Shown here: one piece after another, positions 25,997 to 37,881 of the stretch
Numbering within the stretch: position 1 is the first letter of the stretch
Layout: every line of letters begins with the position of its first letter
Source: an uncultured Chromatium sp.
GTDB taxonomy: Bacteria > Pseudomonadota > Gammaproteobacteria > Chromatiales > Chromatiaceae
Direction of reading: 5' to 3'
NCBI GenBank assembly: GCA_903897335.1
Contig: CAIUAY010000268.1
Span: 1 to 39,263 of the forward strand
Length of the DNA stretch: 39,263 bases
Translations under genes and position numbers: made by a program
Notes under the pieces: generated by a model
Database searches by the model: none
What the model saw: the letters and a program-made list of their open reading frames with translations, nothing else
Told to the model about the DNA's origin: nothing

Positions 25997-27199
25997 ATGG
26001 ATGATCTGCTGGTTCTGGTTCACCGGATTCCCTATCCACCCAACAAGGGCGATAAAATCCGTTCCTTTCATCTGCTCGACGATCTGAGCCGACGCTACCG
26101 GGTGCATCTCGGCACCTTCATTGACCGGCCAGCCGACTGGCAGTATTGCGAGACGGTCAGACGCTATTGCGCGAGTACCTGGTTCGGTGCGCTCTCGCCA
26201 GGCCAGGCCAGGCTCAGAAGTCTAAGCGGTCTGCTCACCCATGACGCGCTGACACTTCCTTATTATCGGAATTCGGGTCTGAGTCACTGGATTCGCGAGC
26301 TGCGTCAGCACACGCCAATTCACCGGATTCTCGTCTATTCGTCAGCGATGGCGCAGTATGTGTTGGGTTCAGAGTTTGCGGGAACGCGCCGGATCATCGA
26401 TTTCGTGGACATGGATTCAGATAAATGGCGTCAGTACAGCACCGTAAAACGCTTCCCGATGAGCTGGGTCTACCGGCGCGAGGCGACCCATCTGGCCGCG
26501 TTCGAACGTCAGGTTGCGAACTGCTTCGATGCCAGCATTTTCGTCTCCGAACAGGAAGCCGCGCTCTTTCGGCGCGGGCTGAATCCTGGCGCATCCCGCG
26601 TCCATGCCATCCACAATGGCGTGGATGCCGATTATTTCGCGCCTGATCCCGCCCGTCAGTCGCCCTTTCAGGGCAACGGCAAGCGGCTGGTCTTCACCGG
26701 CGCGATGGATTACTGGGCCAATGAAGAGGGCGCGACCTGGTTCGCGCAGGCGATCCTGCCCGCCGTGCGTCAGCAGTTTCCGGACTGTGAATTTTATATC
26801 GTCGGCATGAACCCGACCGCCAGCGTACGTCAACTGGAACAGATGCCGGGCGTGACCGTCACCGGCAGCGTTCCGGATGTCCGGCCTTATCTGCAACATG
26901 CGAACGCGGTTGTCGTCCCGTTACGGATTGCCAGAGGCATCCAGAACAAGGTGTTGGAGGCGATGGCAATGGGGCGACCCGTCATCACCACGGCTCAGGC
27001 GCTCGAAGGCATCGCGGCCATGCCTGGACGCGAGATTCAGGTCGCGGACACTGCCGATGCTTTCGTGCGGCAGATCGCGCAGACCCTGACTGAGGGTGAC
27101 GCGGCGATGGGTTCCAGTGCGCGCGCCTTTGTGCAGACGCATTTTTCCTGGGAAGCCAGTCTGCCTTTATTGACCACGCTACTGGAGAACACGACGTGA
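25997..27199 (+). CDS. XrtA-system family 4-type glycosyltransferase (TIGR03087 type)
   Basis: A 400-residue GT-B glycosyltransferase. The N-terminus carries the conserved LVHRIPYPPNKGDKIRSFHL and the C-terminal nucleotide-sugar domain has LVFTGAMDYWANEEGATWFA, FYIVGMNP, VTVTGSVPDVRPYL, and the donor-binding acidic motif ARGIQNKVLEAMAMGRPVI. It transfers a sugar to the growing EPS repeat unit on the cytoplasmic face of the membrane. The open frame extends back to 25925, overlapping the FemAB-like gene, but the conserved sequence starts at the ATG 25997, 5 bases after that gene's stop. Its own stop overlaps the exosortase start (GTGA), so the genes are coupled. Confidence 0.94.
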   Translation: MDDLLVLVHRIPYPPNKGDKIRSFHLLDDLSRRYRVHLGTFIDRPADWQYCETVRRYCASTWFGALSPGQARLRSLSGLLTHDALTLPYYRNSGLSHWIRELRQHTPIHRILVYSSAMAQYVLGSEFAGTRRIIDFVDMDSDKWRQYSTVKRFPMSWVYRREATHLAAFERQVANCFDASIFVSEQEAALFRRGLNPGASRVHAIHNGVDADYFAPDPARQSPFQGNGKRLVFTGAMDYWANEEGATWFAQAILPAVRQQFPDCEFYIVGMNPTASVRQLEQMPGVTVTGSVPDVRPYLQHANAVVVPLRIARGIQNKVLEAMAMGRPVITTAQALEGIAAMPGREIQVADTADAFVRQIAQTLTEGDAAMGSSARAFVQTHFSWEASLPLLTTLLENTT

Positions 27200-28737
27200 A
27201 CACCGCTAACGCATCAATCAATCCAATGCGATCCAGACTGGTCTGGCTGGGCGGACTGATGGCCGCGCTGCTGGCGCTGTTCTGGTCGACCTTTGCTGAC
27301 ATTGTACACATCTGGTGGCGATCAGCGACCTTCGCGCACGGCTTTTTCGTGCTGCCCATTGTCGGTTATCTGATCTGGCGCAAACGTTCTATCCTCCAGC
27401 AGATCCCGTTCACCACTGCGCCCCTGGCCATCCCATTGATCGCGCTGACCGGGCTGTTGTGGCTGCTGGCGCGTCTCACCGAGGTGGCCGTCGTCGAGCA
27501 GCTTGCGGCCGTGCTGTTGATCCCGCTTCTGGTTTGGCTGGCGCTTGGCTGGGCGGCGATCAGGGTACTGGCGTTTCCACTCGCATTCCTGCTGTTTGCC
27601 GTCCCGATGGGCGAGGAGCTGGTCTATCCATTGATGCAGTTCACTGCTGCCATGACTGTCGGCATGCTGCGACTGACGGGTCTCCAAGTCTTCTCGGATG
27701 GTACCTTTTTCAGTCTTCCGAGTGGTGACTGGTCGGTCGTTGCAGCTTGTAGCGGAATCCGCTATCTCATCGCTTCGCTTTTTCTCGGCGTGCTCTATGC
27801 CTATCTCAACTACCGTTCCGTCTGGCGGCGAATCGCTTTTATCGCGCTGTCTGCCATCGTCCCGGTCTTTGCCAATGGTGTGCGCGCTTATCTCATCGTG
27901 ATGATCGGACATCTCAGCGGAATGCGCCTGGCGGTTGGCGTCGATCATCTGATCTATGGCTGGGTGTTCTTCGGTCTCGTGATGTTTCTACTGTTTGCAC
28001 TGGGCAATCTGTGGTCGGAGCCACCATTAACTGACGCCTCGGAGAAACTCGGTTCGGATCTGCCAACCAGTTTCCCGCCAGAACCGGCGCGGCGAAGCCT
28101 GGTCATGCTGACACTCGGACTGCTGATGCTGGCGCTCGGCCCGCTGCTGGCCAATCTAACTGACCGACCATACACCGCGCAGTCACTGGCCTTTGAGATG
28201 CCTGCTGGTCGCGCTGACTGGCAGGCGCTATCCAGCCCCATCACCGACTGGAAACCGCGTTACCTTGGCGCATCGCTGGAGGTTCGGCAGGATTTTCAGC
28301 AGCCCGTGACGGATCATCCTGCCCTGGCTGGGGTCTATCTCGCCTTCTATGGCAATCCAGCCGGTGAACTGGTCAATTCGGAAAACGTGCTGGTGACGCA
28401 GAACGATCCGGCATGGCAGATGCCGTCGCGATACGCCGTTCAGGCACGGATCGCCGGACAGGACATGACAGTGAATGAATCAAAAGTCCGTTCATCCGGG
28501 CAGACACTGCTGGTCTGGGACTGGTATTGGATCGACGGACACCTGGTCGCCAGTGACTATGGTGCCAAACTCTACGAAGCCCTGGCGGTGATCCTCGGTC
28601 GCGGGCAGCGTCAGGCGGGCGTCGTCCTCTACACCACAATGGACGAGGTCAAGCCTGAACTCGCCCGCAAGCGGCTGCAACGCTTTGCGGATGACATGCT
28701 GCCATCGCTTGCGGAACACTTAAACGCCATCCACTGA
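27196..28737 (+). CDS. xrtA: Exosortase A with C-terminal EpsI domain
   Basis: A 513-residue inner-membrane transpeptidase. The N-terminal half has about eight TM segments and the exosortase active-site residues: Cys185 in VAACSGIRYL, Arg230 in FANGVRAYL and His239 in IGHLSGM. The C-terminal part (about 300-510) is an EpsI-type domain outside the membrane (ENVLVTQNDPAWQMPSRYAV, LVWDWYWIDGHLV). Exosortase A recognises a C-terminal PEP-TM-Arg signal on secreted proteins, cleaves it and probably links the protein to a cell-surface molecule made by this locus. No protein with a PEP-CTERM tail is encoded in the window, so substrates must lie elsewhere. GTG start, overlapping the glycosyltransferase stop. 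Confidence 0.97.
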   Translation: MNTANASINPMRSRLVWLGGLMAALLALFWSTFADIVHIWWRSATFAHGFFVLPIVGYLIWRKRSILQQIPFTTAPLAIPLIALTGLLWLLARLTEVAVVEQLAAVLLIPLLVWLALGWAAIRVLAFPLAFLLFAVPMGEELVYPLMQFTAAMTVGMLRLTGLQVFSDGTFFSLPSGDWSVVAACSGIRYLIASLFLGVLYAYLNYRSVWRRIAFIALSAIVPVFANGVRAYLIVMIGHLSGMRLAVGVDHLIYGWVFFGLVMFLLFALGNLWSEPPLTDASEKLGSDLPTSFPPEPARRSLVMLTLGLLMLALGPLLANLTDRPYTAQSLAFEMPAGRADWQALSSPITDWKPRYLGASLEVRQDFQQPVTDHPALAGVYLAFYGNPAGELVNSENVLVTQNDPAWQMPSRYAVQARIAGQDMTVNESKVRSSGQTLLVWDWYWIDGHLVASDYGAKLYEALAVILGRGQRQAGVVLYTTMDEVKPELARKRLQRFADDMLPSLAEHLNAIH

Positions 28738-28762: not shown

Positions 28763-30655
28763 ATGTGCGGAATTGCCGGAATTTTTGATACCCGAGAACG
28801 CCGTCCAGTCAATGCGGAACGGCTGGCGCGGATGAACCAGACGCTGCTGCATCGCGGCCCGGATGATGGCGGGCTGCATCTGGAACCGGGCGTCGGTTTG
28901 GCGCACCGGCGACTGTCGATCATTGATCTGTCAGGCGGTCATCAGCCGCTGTTCAATGAAGATCAGACAGTGGTCGTGGTCTACAACGGCGAAATCTATA
29001 ATTTTCAGGGCTTGGTCACAGAACTCAGCGCTGCTGGTCATGTGTTTCGGACGCACTGCGACACCGAGGTCATCGTTCATGCCTGGGAAGAATGGGGCGA
29101 GCGTTGCGTCGAGCGGTTTCGCGGCATGTTTGCCTTTGCGCTCTGGGATCGCAACCGCGAAACGCTGTTTCTGGCGCGTGATCGGCTCGGCGTCAAGCCG
29201 CTGCACTACGCGCTGACGCCCGACGGGCGGTTGCTGTTCGGTTCTGAAATCAAGGCGCTGCTCGACGATCCAACGCTTCCACGCGAGATCGATCCGCGTT
29301 CGGTCGAAGACTACTTTGCCTACGGCTACATCCCCGATCCGCGCAGTATTTTCAAAGCGGTACATAAATTGCCGCCCGGTCATACGCTGACGTTGCGCCG
29401 CGCTGACGGCAAACTGCCCGCGCCGCGTGAATACTGGGATGTCTCATTTCAGCCCAACGGCGTGACCGATCTCAGCGAGGCGACTGCTCAGGTCATCGAA
29501 CGGCTGCGCGAGGCGGTGCGGATGCGACTGGTCGCCGAGGTGCCACTGGGTGCCTTTTTGTCAGGTGGCGTCGATTCCAGCGCGGTGGTGGCGATGATGG
29601 CCGGTCTGTCAGAGCGACCGGTGAATACGTGTTCGATTTCATTCGGCGATCCGCGTTTCAATGAGAGCGCATTCGCCGAGCGTGTCGCGCAACGGTATGG
29701 CACCGATCATTATGTCGAATCGGTCGATCCTGATGATTTTGATCTGATCGACCGACTGGCCGCGCTGTACGACGAGCCGTATGCGGACAGTTCGGCGATG
29801 CCGACCTATCGCGTGTGCGAACTGGCGCGCAAGCGCGTGACGGTATGTCTGTCCGGCGATGGCGGGGATGAAAGTTTTGCCGGTTATCGCCGCCATCGCT
29901 GGCATATGAATGAAGAACAGGTGAGAAGCCGTCTCCCGCAGTGGTTCCGTGGGTCGGTGTTCGGGCTGCTCGGCGCGGTCTATCCCAAAGCTGACTGGGC
30001 ACCGCAGATCTTCCGAGCCAAATCGACCTTGCAGGCGCTGGCGCGGGATTCGGTCGAAGGGTACTTCGACAGCGTATCAATCCTCGACGGGCACACGCGG
30101 GAGTCGCTGTTTTCGCCGCGTTTTAAGCGTGACCGTCAGGGTTATCAGGCCGTCGAAGTCCTCAAACACCATGCCCAACGTGCCCCGGAGCATTCGCTGT
30201 CACGGGTGCAGTATCTGGACATGAAGACCTATCTGCCCGGCGACATTCTCACCAAAGTGGATCGCGCCAGCATGGCCCATGCGCTGGAAGTGCGGGTGCC
30301 GATGCTTGATCACGAGTTCATCGACTGGGTTTCAGGTCTGCCGCCAGACCTGAAACTGGCCGGAGGCGAAGGAAAATACGTGCTAAAAAAAGCGTTGGAG
30401 CCGTATCTGGGCAACGACATCCTATATCGCCCGAAGATGGGTTTTGCGGTGCCGCTGGCAAGCTGGTTTCGCGGCGCACTGCGGACACGGGTACGCGACA
30501 CGCTACTCGGCGAACCGCTTAACGACACGGGATTGTTTGATCGTCAGCGGCTGCGCTGGATCGTCGAGCAACATCAGTCCGGCGCACGGGATTTCAGCCC
30601 GGCGATCTGGAGCCTGCTGATGTTCGCCGCCTTCCATCGCCAGACGGGAGCCTGA
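28763..30655 (+). CDS. XrtA-associated asparagine-synthase-like amidotransferase
   Basis: A 630-residue class II glutamine amidotransferase, TIGR03108 type. The N-terminal glutaminase domain begins MCGIAGIFDT with nucleophile Cys2 (after Met removal it would be N-terminal). The C-terminal ATP-pyrophosphatase domain has the PP-loop SGGVDSS (267-273) and LSGDGGDESFAGYRR. It would use glutamine-derived ammonia to amidate a carboxyl group, presumably on a uronic-acid sugar or modified EPS residue rather than free aspartate. AAGGAAG upstream of the ATG provides a ribosome binding site. The next gene starts 2 bases after the stop, so this is not the end of the transcript. Confidence 0.95.
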   Translation: MCGIAGIFDTRERRPVNAERLARMNQTLLHRGPDDGGLHLEPGVGLAHRRLSIIDLSGGHQPLFNEDQTVVVVYNGEIYNFQGLVTELSAAGHVFRTHCDTEVIVHAWEEWGERCVERFRGMFAFALWDRNRETLFLARDRLGVKPLHYALTPDGRLLFGSEIKALLDDPTLPREIDPRSVEDYFAYGYIPDPRSIFKAVHKLPPGHTLTLRRADGKLPAPREYWDVSFQPNGVTDLSEATAQVIERLREAVRMRLVAEVPLGAFLSGGVDSSAVVAMMAGLSERPVNTCSISFGDPRFNESAFAERVAQRYGTDHYVESVDPDDFDLIDRLAALYDEPYADSSAMPTYRVCELARKRVTVCLSGDGGDESFAGYRRHRWHMNEEQVRSRLPQWFRGSVFGLLGAVYPKADWAPQIFRAKSTLQALARDSVEGYFDSVSILDGHTRESLFSPRFKRDRQGYQAVEVLKHHAQRAPEHSLSRVQYLDMKTYLPGDILTKVDRASMAHALEVRVPMLDHEFIDWVSGLPPDLKLAGGEGKYVLKKALEPYLGNDILYRPKMGFAVPLASWFRGALRTRVRDTLLGEPLNDTGLFDRQRLRWIVEQHQSGARDFSPAIWSLLMFAAFHRQTGA

Positions 30656-30657
30656 TC

Positions 30658-31767
30658 ATGCCAATCGAACTGCTGTGGCTGCTTGTGCCATGGAGCCTTG
30701 CCTTTGTCTTTCTGGGGCGTCTGCGTTCCTGTCCGACCCGGTTGAGCCAGACCGCTGATCTCAAGGTCTCGGTCATCATCCCCGCCCGCAATGAACAGGC
30801 GCGACTGCCGCCACTGCTCGCCTCGTTGCAGGCGCAGGACTATCCCAATTGTGAAGTGATCGTCGTCGATGACAATTCGACTGACGGAACGTCCGCCCTC
30901 GCCCGTGCAGCGGGTGCGACAACGCTGACCCTGACCGAAGTTCCCGAAGGCTGGCTGGGCAAGCCTCATGCTTGCTGGATCGGAGCGCAACAGGCCAGCG
31001 GCGAGCTGCTGATCTTTCTCGACGCCGATACCGCGCTTGAACCGCAGGGTCTGCGCCGTCTGGTTGCCACCTATGCCGGGGCGGGCGGACTGGTTTCAGT
31101 CCAGCCCTACCATCGCATGGTTCACGCCTACGAACGGCTGTCGGCGCTGTTTTCGATCATCATGATGGGCAGCATCCGCTCCTTTACCCTGGCCGGTCAT
31201 CGCATCGCCGCCAATGGCAGTTTCGGTCCCTGCATGATCTGCTCGCGGGCAGACTATTTCCGCACCGGCGGACATCATCTGGTACGCACCGAGATCATCG
31301 ACGACGTCGCGCTGGCTCGCGAGATGGGTCGCCGTGGCGTCGCCACGACAAATTTTATCGGTCACGGCACCATCTCGTTTCGCATGTATTCGGGCGGAAT
31401 CCGTGATCTGGCGGATGGCTGGACGAAAAATTTTGCCCGTGGCGCGATGACCACCGACCCCTGGATGCTCCTTATGATGACGGCTTGGATTTCGAGCAGT
31501 TCAGCGACCATCAATGCCGTGTCTGGATGGCCTGCTGATGGCCTTTCCAACTGGGTCATCGCAGGTGCCGTCGCCTATGTCGCCTATGTCGCGCAGATCT
31601 GGTGGCTGCTGCGTCGGCAGGGAAATTTTGGCCTGCTCACTGCTCTGACCTATCCAGTCGGGCTGGTGTTTTTCGTGTTGATCTTTGTGCGCTCACTCTA
31701 TCTCACGCTCGTCTGTAACAGCGTGCGCTGGAAGGGACGCCTGATTCCGGTGCGCTCGCCGGTCTAG
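30658..31767 (+). CDS. Family 2 glycosyltransferase resembling CrtQ (diaponeurosporenoate glucosyltransferase)
   Basis: A 369-residue membrane-anchored GT-A glycosyltransferase. An N-terminal TM is followed by VSVIIPARNEQARLPPLLAS, a nucleotide-binding DDNSTDGT, GKPHAC (101-106) and the metal-binding DAD (122-124). The C-terminal half has LVSVQPYHRM, NGSFGPC, FRMYSGGIRDLADGWTKNFA, then two or three TM segments and a terminal SVRWKGR. From memory, staphylococcal CrtQ shares RIIPARNE-like, GKSHAC, SVQPYH, FGP, GWTKH and VEWKGR elements in the same order, which is why I name it. CrtQ glucosylates a carotenoid acid; here the acceptor could be a carotenoid or another lipid. It starts 2 bases after the amidotransferase stop, so it is probably the last gene of the EPS transcript. 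Its 3' end overlaps the convergent CrtO-like gene by 75 bases. Confidence 0.82.
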   Translation: MPIELLWLLVPWSLAFVFLGRLRSCPTRLSQTADLKVSVIIPARNEQARLPPLLASLQAQDYPNCEVIVVDDNSTDGTSALARAAGATTLTLTEVPEGWLGKPHACWIGAQQASGELLIFLDADTALEPQGLRRLVATYAGAGGLVSVQPYHRMVHAYERLSALFSIIMMGSIRSFTLAGHRIAANGSFGPCMICSRADYFRTGGHHLVRTEIIDDVALAREMGRRGVATTNFIGHGTISFRMYSGGIRDLADGWTKNFARGAMTTDPWMLLMMTAWISSSSATINAVSGWPADGLSNWVIAGAVAYVAYVAQIWWLLRRQGNFGLLTALTYPVGLVFFVLIFVRSLYLTLVCNSVRWKGRLIPVRSPV

Positions 31768-32238
31768 CGTCGACAAGATCCGGCGCAGACGGGCGCGATT
31801 GTAACGCTGCACGAGAATGAAGGGCGCATTGGTTACTGCGCCATAGATCAGCATGACTACGCCAATCTGCCAGGGATTCCAGGCAAAAAACGTCAGCGCC
31901 ATACTCCAGGTCAGCCAGTGCGAATATTCCGCTCGGCAGGTCTCTTGCGCAAAGCGATCCAGATCATTCGCATCGGTGCCGTGCAGATGCCGTTTGCAGA
32001 AGCCCCCGCGAAAAAATCCCCCGGCTTCGGGTAGTGCGTCCTTCCAGCGCCGGATCCACAGCCATGCGTAGAATTTCCCTTTTTCCTCCCAGGTATAACT
32101 GCTGCCGATCACGGGCAGCGCGACCAGCAGATGCAGCGGTAAACGATGGGCGACATAGCCTGATCCCAAATGGAAGACGATCCACAGCGTCGCGTAAAGC
32201 GTGATCAACGTCCACATGACGGCGGTTTCAATCGGCAC
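31693..32238 (-). CDS. CrtO-like acyltransferase (glycosyl-diaponeurosporenoate acyltransferase family)
   Basis: A 181-residue protein with an N-terminal TM (about 9-30), a second hydrophobic hairpin (about 108-145) and a strongly conserved core: YTWEEKGKFY (48-57), WIRRWKDALP (61-70), CRAEYSHW (101-108) and NAPFILVQRYNRARL (137-151). I recall the same elements in the same order in staphylococcal CrtO, which puts the fatty acid on glucosylated diaponeurosporenoate in staphyloxanthin synthesis. The gene lies tail-to-tail with the CrtQ-like gene, overlapping it by 75 bases, and 26 bases downstream of a receiver gene on its own strand, so it may be co-transcribed with the hybrid kinase. The GTG start lacks a clear ribosome binding site; an in-frame ATG at 32217 is possible. 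Confidence 0.82.
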   Translation of the reverse strand: MPIETAVMWTLITLYATLWIVFHLGSGYVAHRLPLHLLVALPVIGSSYTWEEKGKFYAWLWIRRWKDALPEAGGFFRGGFCKRHLHGTDANDLDRFAQETCRAEYSHWLTWSMALTFFAWNPWQIGVVMLIYGAVTNAPFILVQRYNRARLRRILSTLDRRAHRNQASLPAHAVTDEREIE

Positions 32239-32264: not shown

Positions 32265-32924
32265 CTAGGTGGCAGCATCTAGCGAGGCGGCATAGAGCGT
32301 GAGCACCCGCTGTAGATTCAGACCGCTGATCGGCTTGACCAGAAAGGCATCAACCCCGTAGGTCTTGGCCACTTTGACATTGACCATCGTGGCATTTCCG
32401 CTGACTAGACAGACAAAGGTGTCCGGCGACCAGAATTTGACCTGCTTCAGAACATCGATGCCATCCAGACCCGGCATGTCGATGTCGAGAAACACCAGAT
32501 GCGGACGTTGCCGGAAAAACTGGACGACGGCCTGCCGTCCGTTCTCCGCTGCGAGGATACGATTGACGCCCTGTTCGCGTAACAGACGCACCAGCAGCTT
32601 AAGCGATAGCGACATGTCATCGGCGACCAGCGCCACGGCCTCCGACAAACCGGGGCGAGGCTGCGGCTGAAAGCGCACCGGCGCCTGCTGATCCATGCGT
32701 GACGCCGCGTCTTCCAGGCTGATCGCATCGGCAGGCGGTTGCTCCTCAGTGGTCACGCCCCGCCAACACTGACGGCGCAGCACCTCCAGTTGCTCTGGAT
32801 CGGTCAGGTTCTGTCCGCGAGCGGCAAGCTGTACGCCATTTGCCAGATACAGGTGATAGGGCAACGGCTCGCCGGCAACGATGTCCGCCGCAGTCACTGG
32901 TGCCAGCAGATGAATTAGCGCCAT
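32265..32924 (-). CDS. Stand-alone receiver-domain response regulator
   Basis: A 219-residue protein. Residues about 1-60 form a small N-terminal region (YHLYLANGVQLAARGQNLTD) of the kind often found fused to c-di-GMP or HD-GYP signalling domains. Residues about 95-215 are a CheY-like receiver (VALVADDMSLSLKLLVRLLR, phospho-acceptor in LVFLDIDMPGLDG, switch SGN, and KPIS). There is no DNA-binding or enzymatic output. The start ATG overlaps the end of the hybrid kinase gene by 10 bases, so it is translationally coupled and is the likely final receiver of that kinase's Hpt domain. Confidence 0.88.
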   Translation of the reverse strand: MALIHLLAPVTAADIVAGEPLPYHLYLANGVQLAARGQNLTDPEQLEVLRRQCWRGVTTEEQPPADAISLEDAASRMDQQAPVRFQPQPRPGLSEAVALVADDMSLSLKLLVRLLREQGVNRILAAENGRQAVVQFFRQRPHLVFLDIDMPGLDGIDVLKQVKFWSPDTFVCLVSGNATMVNVKVAKTYGVDAFLVKPISGLNLQRVLTLYAASLDAAT

Positions 32925-34792
32925 AGGTGTTCCATCTCATCAATTAAATCAGCGACTTCATTAAAATCACCGCGCAATATCTGAAATTCCATGGCTCCGG
33001 CCAGACGGGTCAGTTCCGGCATTCCAAAATTGCTTCCAACACCCTTGATCTGATGCGCCTGACTGCGCAGTGATTCCCAGTCACCCACCTCATGGGCGGC
33101 ACGCATCAGCGCCATCCGACCGGGCAGTTCAGTTAGAAATTCGGTGCGCAGACGCGCAAGTTCAGGATCGTCGTCGGCATGGCGGTCAGCGCGGACGGGC
33201 ATCTCCTGCGCCTGTTGGCCAGATGGCAGATAGTGCGCTAACATTTTATAGAAGGCATCGAGATGGATGGGTTTCGGGAGATACGCATCGCAACCCGCCG
33301 CCAGGGCTGTCTCGATATCAGAGCGTTCAATATTCGCGCTCAGTGCGATGATCGGCCTGTCAAAACCGGTCAGCCGCAGTAGTTCAGTGGCATCCAGCCC
33401 GCCCATCACGGGCATCCGCATATCCATTAATATCAGATCAAAAACATCCTGCTGCGCCTTTTCGACCGCCTCCTGACCATTGGCCGCAATCTCGATCAGC
33501 AGTCCGCAGCGGCGCAGATAGAGTGAAATCAGATTCTGATTAGCCGGATTATCATCCGCGACCAGAATTTTTCCACGCAGAGCCGGAGCCCGTGCCACGC
33601 GCAGCGGACGCACCTGGGATGCCTGGGTAAACGCCTGAACATCCCAGGCCAGATCAGCCGTTGGCACCGGGCCGGTCGCCACGGTTGCAATAAAGACTGA
33701 ACCTGTCCCTGGAGTGCTGATCACCTGAAGATCACCACCCAGATGTTCCGCCAGCGCCTTGCTGATCGACAGTCCCAGGCCGACGCCTGAAACACGGTTC
33801 CTGCTGGAAGGGTCGACTTGGGTAAATGGTTCAAACAGCGTTGCCAGTTGCGTTTCTTCAATACCGCAGCCGGTATCCTGCACCGAAATCAGGAGTTTCT
33901 CCTGTTCCGTGGAAAAGCTCAGGATCAAACGGACGGTGCCCGTCTGCGTAAATTTGATGGCATTGCTCAACAGGTTAAAGATAATCTGTCTGGCGCGGGT
34001 CGGATCGGTCTGAATCTTCAGTGGCAGCGGCGGCATGAAATGAACGCCAAATTCGAGACCCTTTTCAGTAGACTGTATCCGTGCCACATCAACAACACCT
34101 GCCAGCAGATCTGGCAGCGACGTCTCAAGCCGCTCCAGTGCAATACGCTGTTCCCGAATCTTTGAAAAATCCAGGATGTCGTTCAGCAGGGCATGCAGAT
34201 GGCGGCCATTGCGGATGATGGTATCCACCGCCTGGGCACGTTCAACCAGTGTCTGGCGGCTGTCGATCATGGTCTCGGCAAACCCGATGATCGCCGTCAG
34301 GGGCGTGCGGATCTCATGGCTCATATTGGCCAGAAATAGCGATTTCGTGTGCGCAGCCGCCTCGGCATCCCGTTTAGCAAGCTCCAGTTCCTGCTCCCGC
34401 TGCGTCTGACTCAGATCGTCAAAGAGACCCAGATAGCCGATTCGGTGGCCTTGCGGATTCTGGATCGCCTGGATCGTCAGAATCTGGAGATACTCCCCTC
34501 CATGTTTACGGCGGTTCCAGATTTCGCCCCGCCAATGGCCATCGGCAATCAGCATCTGCCAGATCCGCGCATAAAACTCAGGCGGATGACGGTCAGATTT
34601 GAGAAACCTCGGATTCTGACCCCTGGCATCGACTTCGGCATAGCCGGTAATCCGGGTGAAGGATGGATTGACTGCGACGATACGCGGCTGACAATCGGTG
34701 AGCAGGGCACCGTCGTGCGTCAGCGTAAAGAGATGACCAGCCGCCTGGCGTAGACAGTCTTCAGCGTGACATTCCAGGATCGCTGCGGACAT
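32915..34792 (-). CDS. Hybrid histidine kinase: PAS-HisKA-HATPase-REC-Hpt
   Basis: A 625-residue cytoplasmic kinase without TM segments. The PAS domain (about 15-130) has IVAVNPSFTRITGYAEVDAR and GEIWNRRKHGGEY. The HisKA domain has H159 in ANMSHEIRTPLTAIIGFAET, and the ATPase domain has LLSNAIKFTQTG, VQDTGCGI and GVGLGLSISKALAEHLGG. The receiver (about 405-520) has ILVADDNPANQNL and LILMDMRMPVMGG, and the C-terminal Hpt domain has H580 in SQAHQIKGVGSNFG. It carries out a His-Asp-His relay internally, with the coupled receiver at 32265-32924 as the obvious next acceptor. AGGA lies 5 bases upstream of the ATG. The signal for the PAS domain is unknown. Confidence 0.95.
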   Translation of the reverse strand: MSAAILECHAEDCLRQAAGHLFTLTHDGALLTDCQPRIVAVNPSFTRITGYAEVDARGQNPRFLKSDRHPPEFYARIWQMLIADGHWRGEIWNRRKHGGEYLQILTIQAIQNPQGHRIGYLGLFDDLSQTQREQELELAKRDAEAAAHTKSLFLANMSHEIRTPLTAIIGFAETMIDSRQTLVERAQAVDTIIRNGRHLHALLNDILDFSKIREQRIALERLETSLPDLLAGVVDVARIQSTEKGLEFGVHFMPPLPLKIQTDPTRARQIIFNLLSNAIKFTQTGTVRLILSFSTEQEKLLISVQDTGCGIEETQLATLFEPFTQVDPSSRNRVSGVGLGLSISKALAEHLGGDLQVISTPGTGSVFIATVATGPVPTADLAWDVQAFTQASQVRPLRVARAPALRGKILVADDNPANQNLISLYLRRCGLLIEIAANGQEAVEKAQQDVFDLILMDMRMPVMGGLDATELLRLTGFDRPIIALSANIERSDIETALAAGCDAYLPKPIHLDAFYKMLAHYLPSGQQAQEMPVRADRHADDDPELARLRTEFLTELPGRMALMRAAHEVGDWESLRSQAHQIKGVGSNFGMPELTRLAGAMEFQILRGDFNEVADLIDEMEHLWR

Positions 34793-34850: not shown

Positions 34851-36497
34851 TCAGGCGCGTCGAGCCGCCCGAAAAAACAGCAGCGTACCCGCCAGATAAC
34901 AGCCAATTACCAGTGCGGTGACGGCGGATTCATCAAGCCACTGACCAGGCCCAAACAGCAGCAGCAGCGTCCCGCAGATGGTCAACGTTGCACCCGCCAG
35001 CGCCCGGACTGAATTCACTGCGCCCGGCGTTTGCCGTTCCAATGCCCCGGCGTTTCCCTGTAGATCCGCCGTTCGCATGTGTTTGTCGTAAGCCATCAAC
35101 ATGCGATAGGCGATCAAGGGCAGTTCAGGAGCCTGATCAGCCACGGAATACAGGTTGCGTTTGGTGCGATCAAACAATCCCTTGATGCCGATCTGATCCT
35201 TCATCCAGCGTTCCATATACGGCTTGGCAGTCGTCCACAGATCCAGCTCAGGATAAAGCTGGCGCCCCAGTCCCTCGATGTTGAGCAGCGTTTTTTCAAG
35301 CAGCACCAGTTGCGGCTGGATCTCCATGTTGAAGCGTCGTGCCGTCTGGAACAGACGCACCAGAAAGTGCCCGAACGAAATCTCAGCCAGCGGTTTTTCG
35401 AAGATTGGCTCACTGACAGTGCGGATTGCGCTTTCAAATTCGTCAACACGGGTGCCGTGCGGCACCCAGCCGGATTCAACGTGCAACTCAGCGACGCGCC
35501 GATAGTCACGCTCGAAAAAGGCCAACAGATTCTCGGCCAAATAGCGCTGATCCTCGGTGGTCAGGGTGCCAACAATCCCAAAGTCAATCGAGATATAACG
35601 ACCAGAGGGTTCCACGAAGATGTTGCCGGGGTGCATGTCGGCATGGAAAAAATTATCCCGAAACACCTGGGTAAAGAAGATCTCGACGCCGCGCTCGCCG
35701 AGCTGCTTCATGCTCACGCCCTGCGCTTTGAGTGTCTCGACATCGCTGACCGGCGTTCCGTAAACGCGCTCCATCACCATCACGTTCGAGCGCGTCCAGT
35801 CCCAGTAGACCTCTGGGATATAGAGCATCTCGCTGTTCTGCCAGTTGCGCCGAATCTGCGAGGCATTGGCCGCTTCGCGCTGCAAATCCAGTTCATCGTA
35901 GATGGTTTTTTCGTACTCGCGCACCACCTCGATCGGACGCAGACGCCGGCCTTCCTTCCAGTAATGCTCGGCAAGCTGGGCGACGGTGTACATCAGACCC
36001 AGATCCTGGCGGATGGTGCGTTCAATGCCGGGGCGCAAAACCTTGACCACGACCTCGGTGCCATCCTTCAGGCGTCCAGTATGCACCTGTGCAATCGAGG
36101 CGGACGCCAGCGGCGTGGCATCGAATTCATCTAGCACCTCATCGACTGAACGCCCCCACGCCTTTTCGATCAGGAGACGCGCTTCGTTGCCATCGAATGG
36201 CGGCACGCGATCCTGGAGCTTGGCCAGTTCAACCGCCAGATCATCCGGGAGCAGATCGCGCCGGGTGGAGAGAATCTGGCCAAACTTGACGAAGATCGGG
36301 CCTAGGTCTTCCAGTGCCCGGCGCACCCGCACCGGATAGGCGGGCAGATCGCGTTCCACCCAGTGCCAGGGCAATAGATGCTTGATCCAGCGCAGCGGTC
36401 GAAACAGATGGGTGGCAAGGACGACTTCATCCAAACCATGACGCAGCAGTATCCAATTGATCCAGAAAAGACGCAGTGCCTGGCGGGGTCCAATCAT
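34851..36497 (-). CDS. ubiB: UbiB, ubiquinone biosynthesis ADCK/ABC1-like protein
   Basis: A 548-residue atypical protein-kinase-like ATPase needed for ubiquinone synthesis. Hallmarks are the KxGQ region ([20 protein letters not shown]), the alanine-rich loop [20 protein letters not shown], the lysine in [23 protein letters not shown], and [13 protein letters not shown] with the metal-binding DFG in [10 protein letters not shown]. Two C-terminal TM segments anchor it to the inner membrane. It is last in the ubiE-ubiJ-ubiB order, with a 4-base overlap with ubiJ, as in other gammaproteobacteria. Known family role: ATP hydrolysis that supports the Ubi complex, probably by extracting hydrophobic intermediates. 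Confidence 0.97.
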
Positions 36498-37135
36498 GGC
36501 TGACGGCCAGACTCCGCTGCCTGGTGCGCCAACTGTTCGACACGAGCGGCAATGCGTTCGCAGTCATCACGCAGGGAATCGACCTGGGTCAGAAAGGCAT
36601 CGACCTCATCGCGGGTCGGCACCAGCCGCCGCTCGTCTTGCAGGTATGCTTTCAGATCTGCCGTCAAGGATTCAGACGTGCGCTGTCCCCAGCGTTCGGC
36701 AGCCTTGAATTGGTTGCCGATCTGACGTGCGAAGGGATCGCCGATGACACGCGCCAGTTGTTCTTCCCAATCCACGTCCAGGCGTGCGAGCGCGGCGTTG
36801 AATGACTGCGCCAGCGCCGTATCGCCGGTGATTTCCACCTCGCCTGACATCAATTGCGATTCCCTGTGTTCGGCCATGCCCATCCGTGCCAGGCTCAGTG
36901 GCGTCCCCCGAATGAGACAGTCTGGCGCGGCGTCGTAGGTTCCGAAAATCTGTAATCCCTGAGTGTTCGGGATGATGATCACGCGGGTGCCAAAGCCTTT
37001 GACCTCGATGGCGATGAGCCGACCGGCAAGCGCCGCGAAGCCCGCCGCGCCATGGGGATCGAGCGCGATATAGCGATTGACCGCTTGTTCGATCACCGCT
37101 AGCAGCGCATCGGGAATCTGGAGTCTATCGTTCAC
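36494..37135 (-). CDS. ubiJ: UbiJ, SCP2-domain ubiquinone biosynthesis accessory factor
   Basis: A 213-residue protein with an N-terminal SCP2-like lipid-binding domain (about 20-120: [52 protein letters not shown]) and a C-terminal charged helical region. UbiJ binds ubiquinone intermediates and, with UbiK, scaffolds the soluble Ubi complex. Length and gene order (between ubiE and ubiB, with ATGA overlaps on both sides) match the family. No unusual feature is seen. Confidence 0.93.
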
Positions 37136-37881
37136 AGCTTGTACCCCCGATGGATGGCGACGATGCCACCGCTGTGATTGAAGTATTCACAACGCTCAAA
37201 TCCAGCGGTTTCCATCATCGAGCGCAGGGTGTCCTGATCCGGGTGCATCCGAATCGACTCGGCCAGATAACGATAGCTGCCGGGGTCATTCACCACCAAC
37301 CGCCCCAGCGTCGGCAAGACCGAGAAGGAATAGAGATCGTAGACCTTGCCCAGCGATTTGCTGACCGGATGCGAAAACTCCAGGATCAGCGCCCGTCCGC
37401 CCGGTCGCAGCACCCGATACATTTCTTCGAGCGCGGCCTGTTTATCGGTGACGTTGCGCAGACCAAAACCGATGGTGACGCAATCGAAACGATCATCATC
37501 GAACGGGATTTTTTCGGCATTGATGAGCGCGTAATGCAGATTGCCGACGCGACCGCGATCCAGCATCCGTTCGCGCCCCTCAGTGAGCATGGAAGCGTTG
37601 ATGTCGGACATCACCACGCATCCCTCAGCGCCGACGATCCCGGCGAAACGGTCGGCCAGATCACCCGTTCCAGACGCCAGATCCAGCACCCGCTGCCCGC
37701 GACGCACGCCAGCCAGCTCAATGGCATGACGTTTCCAAAGACGATGGATGCCGAGCGACATCAGATCGTTCATGAGGTCATAGCGCGAGGCGACTGAATC
37801 AAACACCTCGCGCACCCGTGCCGCTTTCTCGGCAACGGGCACCTGCTGATAGCCAAAATGGGTCGTTTTATCATTGGACAT
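37132..37881 (-). CDS. ubiE: UbiE, ubiquinone/menaquinone C-methyltransferase
   Basis: A 249-residue SAM-dependent methyltransferase. Family motifs are [20 protein letters not shown], the SAM-binding [35 protein letters not shown], and the C-terminal segment [31 protein letters not shown]. It methylates the quinone ring precursor of ubiquinone (and of menaquinone, if present). First gene of the ubiE-ubiJ-ubiB operon. GGGGA lies about 9 bases before the ATG. The putative promoter must lie in the spacer to the right (37882 onward). Confidence 0.97.

Follow-up and report, generated by a model that had tools for sequence, protein, structure and literature searches.

One of the closest described counterparts of the gene pair reported here belongs to the staphyloxanthin pathway of Staphylococcus. 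There, the GT2 glycosyltransferase CrtQ and the small acyltransferase CrtO, a member of PF18927, are encoded in tandem and act in turn on a carotenoid, the substrate being a C30 carotenoid carboxylic acid. In green sulfur bacteria, the C-1 hydroxyl of a C40 photosynthetic carotenoid, hydroxychlorobactene, is glucosylated by CruC and then acylated by CruD. Among purple bacteria, Rhodoblastus acidophilus produces rhodopin glucoside. In the spirilloxanthin route, CrtC introduces a tertiary C-1 hydroxyl, which is then methylated by CrtF, the 1-hydroxycarotenoid O-methyltransferase. Deletion evidence exists for META1p3663 and META1p3664 of Methylobacterium extorquens AM1, a glycosyltransferase and an adjacent acyltransferase that make a carotenoid glucoside ester (PMC10448405). 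Unlike the pair presented below, they act on a C30 dicarboxylic acid and involve a lysophospholipid-type acyltransferase; no CrtO homologue was found by the authors of that study (PMC10448405). For purple bacteria, a 2023 review states that nothing is known on the genes and enzymes of carotenoid glycosylation and fatty-acid esterification (PMC10604819), and our literature searches found no genes for rhodopin glucoside.

The window analysed here is a stretch of 39,263 nucleotides, contig C268 (positions 1-39,263) of a Chromatiaceae draft genome (G000). It carries a CrtQ-like GT2 gene and a CrtO-like gene in convergent orientation (Table 1). The ORF coordinates agree with the first-pass annotation: only 2 bases separate the XrtA amidotransferase gene (end at 30655) from the start of GT2 (30658), and the GT2 gene overlaps the CrtO-like ORF at the 3' ends. 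The motifs named there for the GT2 protein (GKPHAC, SVQPYH, GWTKN, WKGR) and for the CrtO-like protein (RRWKD, RAE..HW, ILVQRYNRARL) were all found as well. Eight further loci of the Chromatiaceae show the same convergent layout, the genes overlapping there by 60-162 nt. Both genes are real. On the far side of the CrtO gene, a histidine kinase and a response regulator adjoin a group of UbiB, SCP2-domain and UbiE genes.

Table 1. Features of the window discussed in the text.
Feature	Position	Strand	Remarks
Exosortase A (XrtA)	27196-28737	+	TIGR03109 342 bits, cut-off 208
XrtA/PEP-CTERM amidotransferase	28763-30655	+	TIGR03108 1084 bits, cut-off 817; directly upstream of GT2
GT2 glycosyltransferase, CrtQ-like	30658-31767	+	369 aa, ATG start; proposed 1-hydroxycarotenoid glucosyltransferase
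Convergent 3' overlap GT2/CrtO	31693-31767		75 bases
CrtO-family (PF18927) protein	31693-32238	-	181 aa, GTG start; proposed carotenoid-glucoside acyltransferase
Histidine kinase and response regulator	32265-34792		
UbiB (ABC1 kinase), SCP2-domain and UbiE genes	34851-37881	-	

With 107.4 bits against the PF18927 profile, the CrtO-like ORF lies well over the cut-off of 27.3, and its assignment to the CrtO family in the first reading stands. In an alignment of 81 homologues including the protein of the window, the following positions show no variation to two decimals: W65-K66-D67, P70-E71-A72, R102, E104, H107, P139, Q144-R145 and N147-R148. The family-wide pattern WKD..PEA, R.E..H, QR.NR is present in the window protein. 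An AlphaFold2 model built with 57 homologues is confident and all helical (pLDDT 89.9). Foldseek comparison with solved structures gave no match below E 0.001, and VIA-align yielded Z values of at most 6.6, such as common helical arrangements also reach, which say little for a helical protein. We propose that the CrtO-family protein is a putative acyltransferase acting on a carotenoid glucoside.

The GT2 protein matched PF00535 with 86.9 bits. Its best curated NCBIfam match was HpnB, a hopene-associated glycosyltransferase, with 105.4 bits (cut-off 379.25), and the 2'-O-glycosyltransferase CruG reached 90.2 bits (cut-off 600). As both remain far under their cut-offs, the substrate is named by no model; a CrtQ model was not found among the NCBIfam matches. 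A GT2 domain with a DxD motif is present, and in an alignment of 78 homologues D122 and D124 are, together with W99, G101-K102, P150, H152 and E159, invariant to two decimals. Since such residues are invariant across 78 and 81 homologues, respectively, the motifs of GT2 and CrtO do not result from chance.

To place the pair in a wider context, a collection of species genomes was scanned with the CrtO alignment, which resulted in 80 loci with flanks of up to 10 kb, 66 of them outside and 14 inside the Chromatiaceae. In all 66 outside loci (Bacillaceae, Actinomycetota, Spirochaetota and cyanobacteria) a GT2 homologue immediately precedes CrtO in the same orientation, and most of them contain a crtI or crtB homologue within 10 kb. 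Inside the family, GT2 is convergent and overlapping with CrtO in 8 of the 14 loci and lies outside the fetched flank in the other 6; several members of the family have them on different contigs or further apart than one 10 kb flank. Thus, GT2 is the regular partner of CrtO among carotenoid genes, and the Chromatiaceae genes are, unlike the tandem CrtQ/CrtO genes of Staphylococcus, convergent and overlapping or apart. The orthologous convergent pair occurs elsewhere in unrelated surroundings or inside a photosynthesis cluster. The latter is the case in Thiocystis violacea DSM 208, where the order reads bchI, bchD, bchO, crtI, crtB, a methyltransferase gene, CrtO converging on GT2, several further genes, crtC, crtD, crtE and crtF. 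Here, bchI, crtI, crtC, crtD and the crtF-type O-methyltransferase were called by family search, and the remaining genes were placed by homology to our genome and to its genus-mate G004, or by eye. In quick trees with SH-aLRT support only, the Chromatiaceae sequences of GT2 and of CrtO each group in a single clade (supports 100 and 97).

The crtI-, crtB- and crtC-type genes, for which the first-pass annotation had proposed to look elsewhere in the genome, were all detected. The genome contains pufLM, a contig that carries crtI, crtB and bchO together, and crtC on another contig (C136, L132:4786-5688), which identifies it as that of a purple phototroph. Only one squalene/phytoene-synthase (SQS_PSY) gene is present; it is CrtB-like and adjoins crtI, so that a C40 carotenoid is the expected substrate. 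Beside it, the genome searches detected neither a C30 synthase (CrtM) nor a route via squalene synthase. The whole-genome search gave no match for crtF and no second crtI-family gene over the cut-off that could represent crtD, the only full crtI-family match being the phytoene desaturase adjoining crtB. The draft consists of 277 contigs, and the one with crtC breaks off 1.3 kb past this gene; crtD and crtF were hence judged absent from searches of the whole genome and not from an intact locus. This contig end 3' of crtC (L132:5689-7005), which in other Chromatiaceae is the place of crtD-crtE-crtF, reads by eye like transposase fragments.

For crtC, the Pfam family PF07143 was dropped as a marker because it had no match in our genome and gave strong matches elsewhere that were unrelated to pufLM. 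A CrtC query read by eye from the photosynthesis cluster of G004 was used instead; its homologues scored 279 and 275 bits against the CrtC model NF045922, under the cut-off of 400. The crtC of our genome is 93% identical to that of G004, and those of G037, G041, G055 and G032 belong to the same group with 75-95% identity to the query. The other five genus-mates show 52-54%. This identity pattern suggests that crtC was transferred or replaced between genera. Two further observations concern the photosynthesis genes of the genome. Between bchC and crtB (L044:4452-9204, contig C178) we observed genes for a PgfS-like GT2, a GtrA-type membrane protein, a methyltransferase, a TuaG-like GT2 and a 681-aa protein without Pfam match. 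On the 3' side of pufLMC (L080:13202-15135, contig C60), an ORF resembles by eye a RuBisCO-like protein with an isopentenyl diphosphate isomerase after it.

In summary of the pathway, CrtB and CrtI would lead to lycopene, one end of which would be hydrated by CrtC to the tertiary C-1 hydroxyl of rhodopin, or of rhodopinal if the C-20 methyl group is oxidised as well. With CrtF and CrtD not found, this hydroxyl should stay free. GT2, the partner of CrtO in carotenoid clusters elsewhere, would be the natural candidate for its glucosylation, transferring glucose to the same C-1 hydroxyl that CrtF would methylate, and the CrtO-family protein would then esterify the glucose with a fatty acid. Given that neither the 3,4-desaturation by CrtD nor the O-methylation by CrtF is encoded as far as the searches show, the pathway would close with glucosylation and acylation and not run on to spirilloxanthin. 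We infer substrate, sugar, acyl group and order of the steps from sequence. In its proposed reaction and its phototrophic host, the pair is comparable to CruC/CruD with their substrate hydroxychlorobactene; in contrast to the C30 acid of Staphylococcus, its substrate would be a C40 1-hydroxycarotenoid. A carotenoid-glycoside-ester branch had been one of the suggestions of the first reading, and it gains support from the CrtO match, the pairing with GT2, the phototrophy and carotenoid genes, the placement in the T. violacea cluster and the clades. The pair therefore probably makes a carotenoid glucoside fatty-acid ester in this purple sulfur bacterium, and linkage together with pathway context gives good reason to assign it this role.

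The distribution of the genes was investigated in 92 relatives, our own genome among them, of which 26 are pufLM-positive. A close GT2 orthologue occurs in six: our genome, G025, Allochromatium warmingii (G032), Thiobaca trueperi (G039), an uncultured Thiodictyon (G041) and Imhoffiella purpurea (G055), the five others sharing 66-76% identity with the GT2 of the window. All six contain pufLM, compared to 26 of the 92 overall (Fisher p = 3e-4), and the five genomes with CrtO over the Pfam cut-off are likewise all among the 26. Within these phototrophs, crtF is absent from G000, G023, G025, G032, G041 and G055, that is, from 5 of 6 with GT2 versus 1 of 20 without (G023, 84% complete; Fisher p = 5e-4, shared ancestry ignored). 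G000, G025, G032 and G041 lack a second crtI-family gene over the cut-off. That of G055 has 25-26% identity to CrtD and was not counted as crtD. Absence of crtD then amounts to 5 of 6 versus 0 of 20 (Fisher p = 9e-5, shared ancestry ignored), where crtD presence in the other genomes means a second crtI-family match, CrtD and CruO not being told apart one by one. Both genes are missing in 5 of the 6 GT2-positive phototrophs sampled. In A. warmingii, which possesses GT2 and CrtO but neither crtD nor crtF, crtC is directly followed by crtE; in Imhoffiella, the region that leads from crtC via crtE to bchC has no crtD or crtF match.

When 210 genomes of the family were searched, GT2 was found in 21 and crtF in 65. 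As crtF is kept in 15 of the 21 GT2 carriers, Allochromatium vinosum among them, a mutual exclusion of the two genes is ruled out, and the pattern is better read as a loss of crtF that is tolerated where GT2 is present. Congeners of G000 and G041 that contain crtF have no GT2. The A. vinosum orthologue (L248:5259-6368) is 71% identical, and no CrtO homologue was found in the 12 kb fetched around it. A. warmingii is a rhodopinal producer and A. vinosum makes spirilloxanthins (PMC3368242), in line with their crtF status. For species carrying GT2, no report of a glucoside or ester was found in the accessible literature.

Several other functions have to be weighed. The first-pass annotation had tied the pair to the exosortase A system; recruited to it, the pair would glycosylate or acylate a lipid carrier, a polysaccharide or a surface anchor. 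By NCBIfam, the XrtA locus upstream of GT2 comprises PrsT, PrsK, a PEP-CTERM response regulator, a chain length determinant, a tyrosine kinase, a TIGR03016 protein, a deacetylase, FemAB, Stp1, XrtA and the amidotransferase, and with only 2 bases between amidotransferase and GT2 a co-transcription of GT2 with this operon may take place in our genome. However, an XrtA homologue near CrtO was found in 0 of the 80 loci within flanks of up to 10 kb, and the amidotransferase query gave only distant relatives (30-36%) in two of them. The adjacency is seen in our genome only, a result that the annotation itself had named as refuting. Moreover, the orthologous convergent pair stands elsewhere in unrelated or photosynthetic surroundings, and close GT2 orthologues are restricted to phototrophs among the 92 relatives. 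We consider a recruitment to the exosortase system very unlikely; XrtA and the amidotransferase are neighbours only and lie outside the proposed function. It is rather unlikely that the substrate of GT2 is a different isoprenoid or lipid, for instance a hopanoid, quinone or polyprenol, with CrtO acylating the product. HpnB being the best curated match of GT2 (105 bits versus a cut-off of 379) and a ubiquinone group of UbiB, SCP2 and UbiE located 2.6 kb beyond the CrtO gene would fit such a role, but the single CrtB-like squalene/phytoene-synthase gene implies that HpnC/HpnD-type squalene synthases for hopanoids are missing, and at most loci the CrtO homologues stand with carotenoid genes.

A glycosylated C30 carotenoid of the staphyloxanthin type is suggested by the very name of CrtO and by the crtI-family genes that adjoin many Bacillaceae CrtO homologues. 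With no C30 synthase found beside the CrtB-like gene, and with a phytoene desaturase adjoining crtB as sole full crtI-family match, a strict staphyloxanthin route is unlikely in our genome, and we regard such a product of the pair as extremely improbable. Finally, GT2 and CrtO could act on a carotenoid in other species and be idle or marginal here, GT2 glucosylating trace rhodopin only. The retention of crtF by many GT2 carriers, including the spirilloxanthin producer A. vinosum, agrees with this, whereas both genes are intact in our genome, the family-wide invariant residues are conserved and crtD and crtF were not found; an idle pair is therefore unlikely as well.

Returning to the carotenoid glucoside ester, we tend to the view that the two proteins are the carotenoid glucosyltransferase and the glucoside acyltransferase missing so far in purple sulfur bacteria, and that they go back to a single acquired pair, which was reshaped to the convergent, overlapping form and allowed several lineages to lose crtD and crtF and to end at rhodopin- or rhodopinal-glucoside esters. 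Enzyme pairs of this kind are known; one at work in purple sulfur bacteria would close the gap stated in the 2023 review (PMC10604819). The pair provides two candidate genes, a list of carrier species and one species with the pair inside the photosynthesis cluster, and it predicts which strains should contain glucoside esters. As light-harvesting complexes bind carotenoids, the GT2 and CrtO genes could also be of use for studying how the antenna is assembled.
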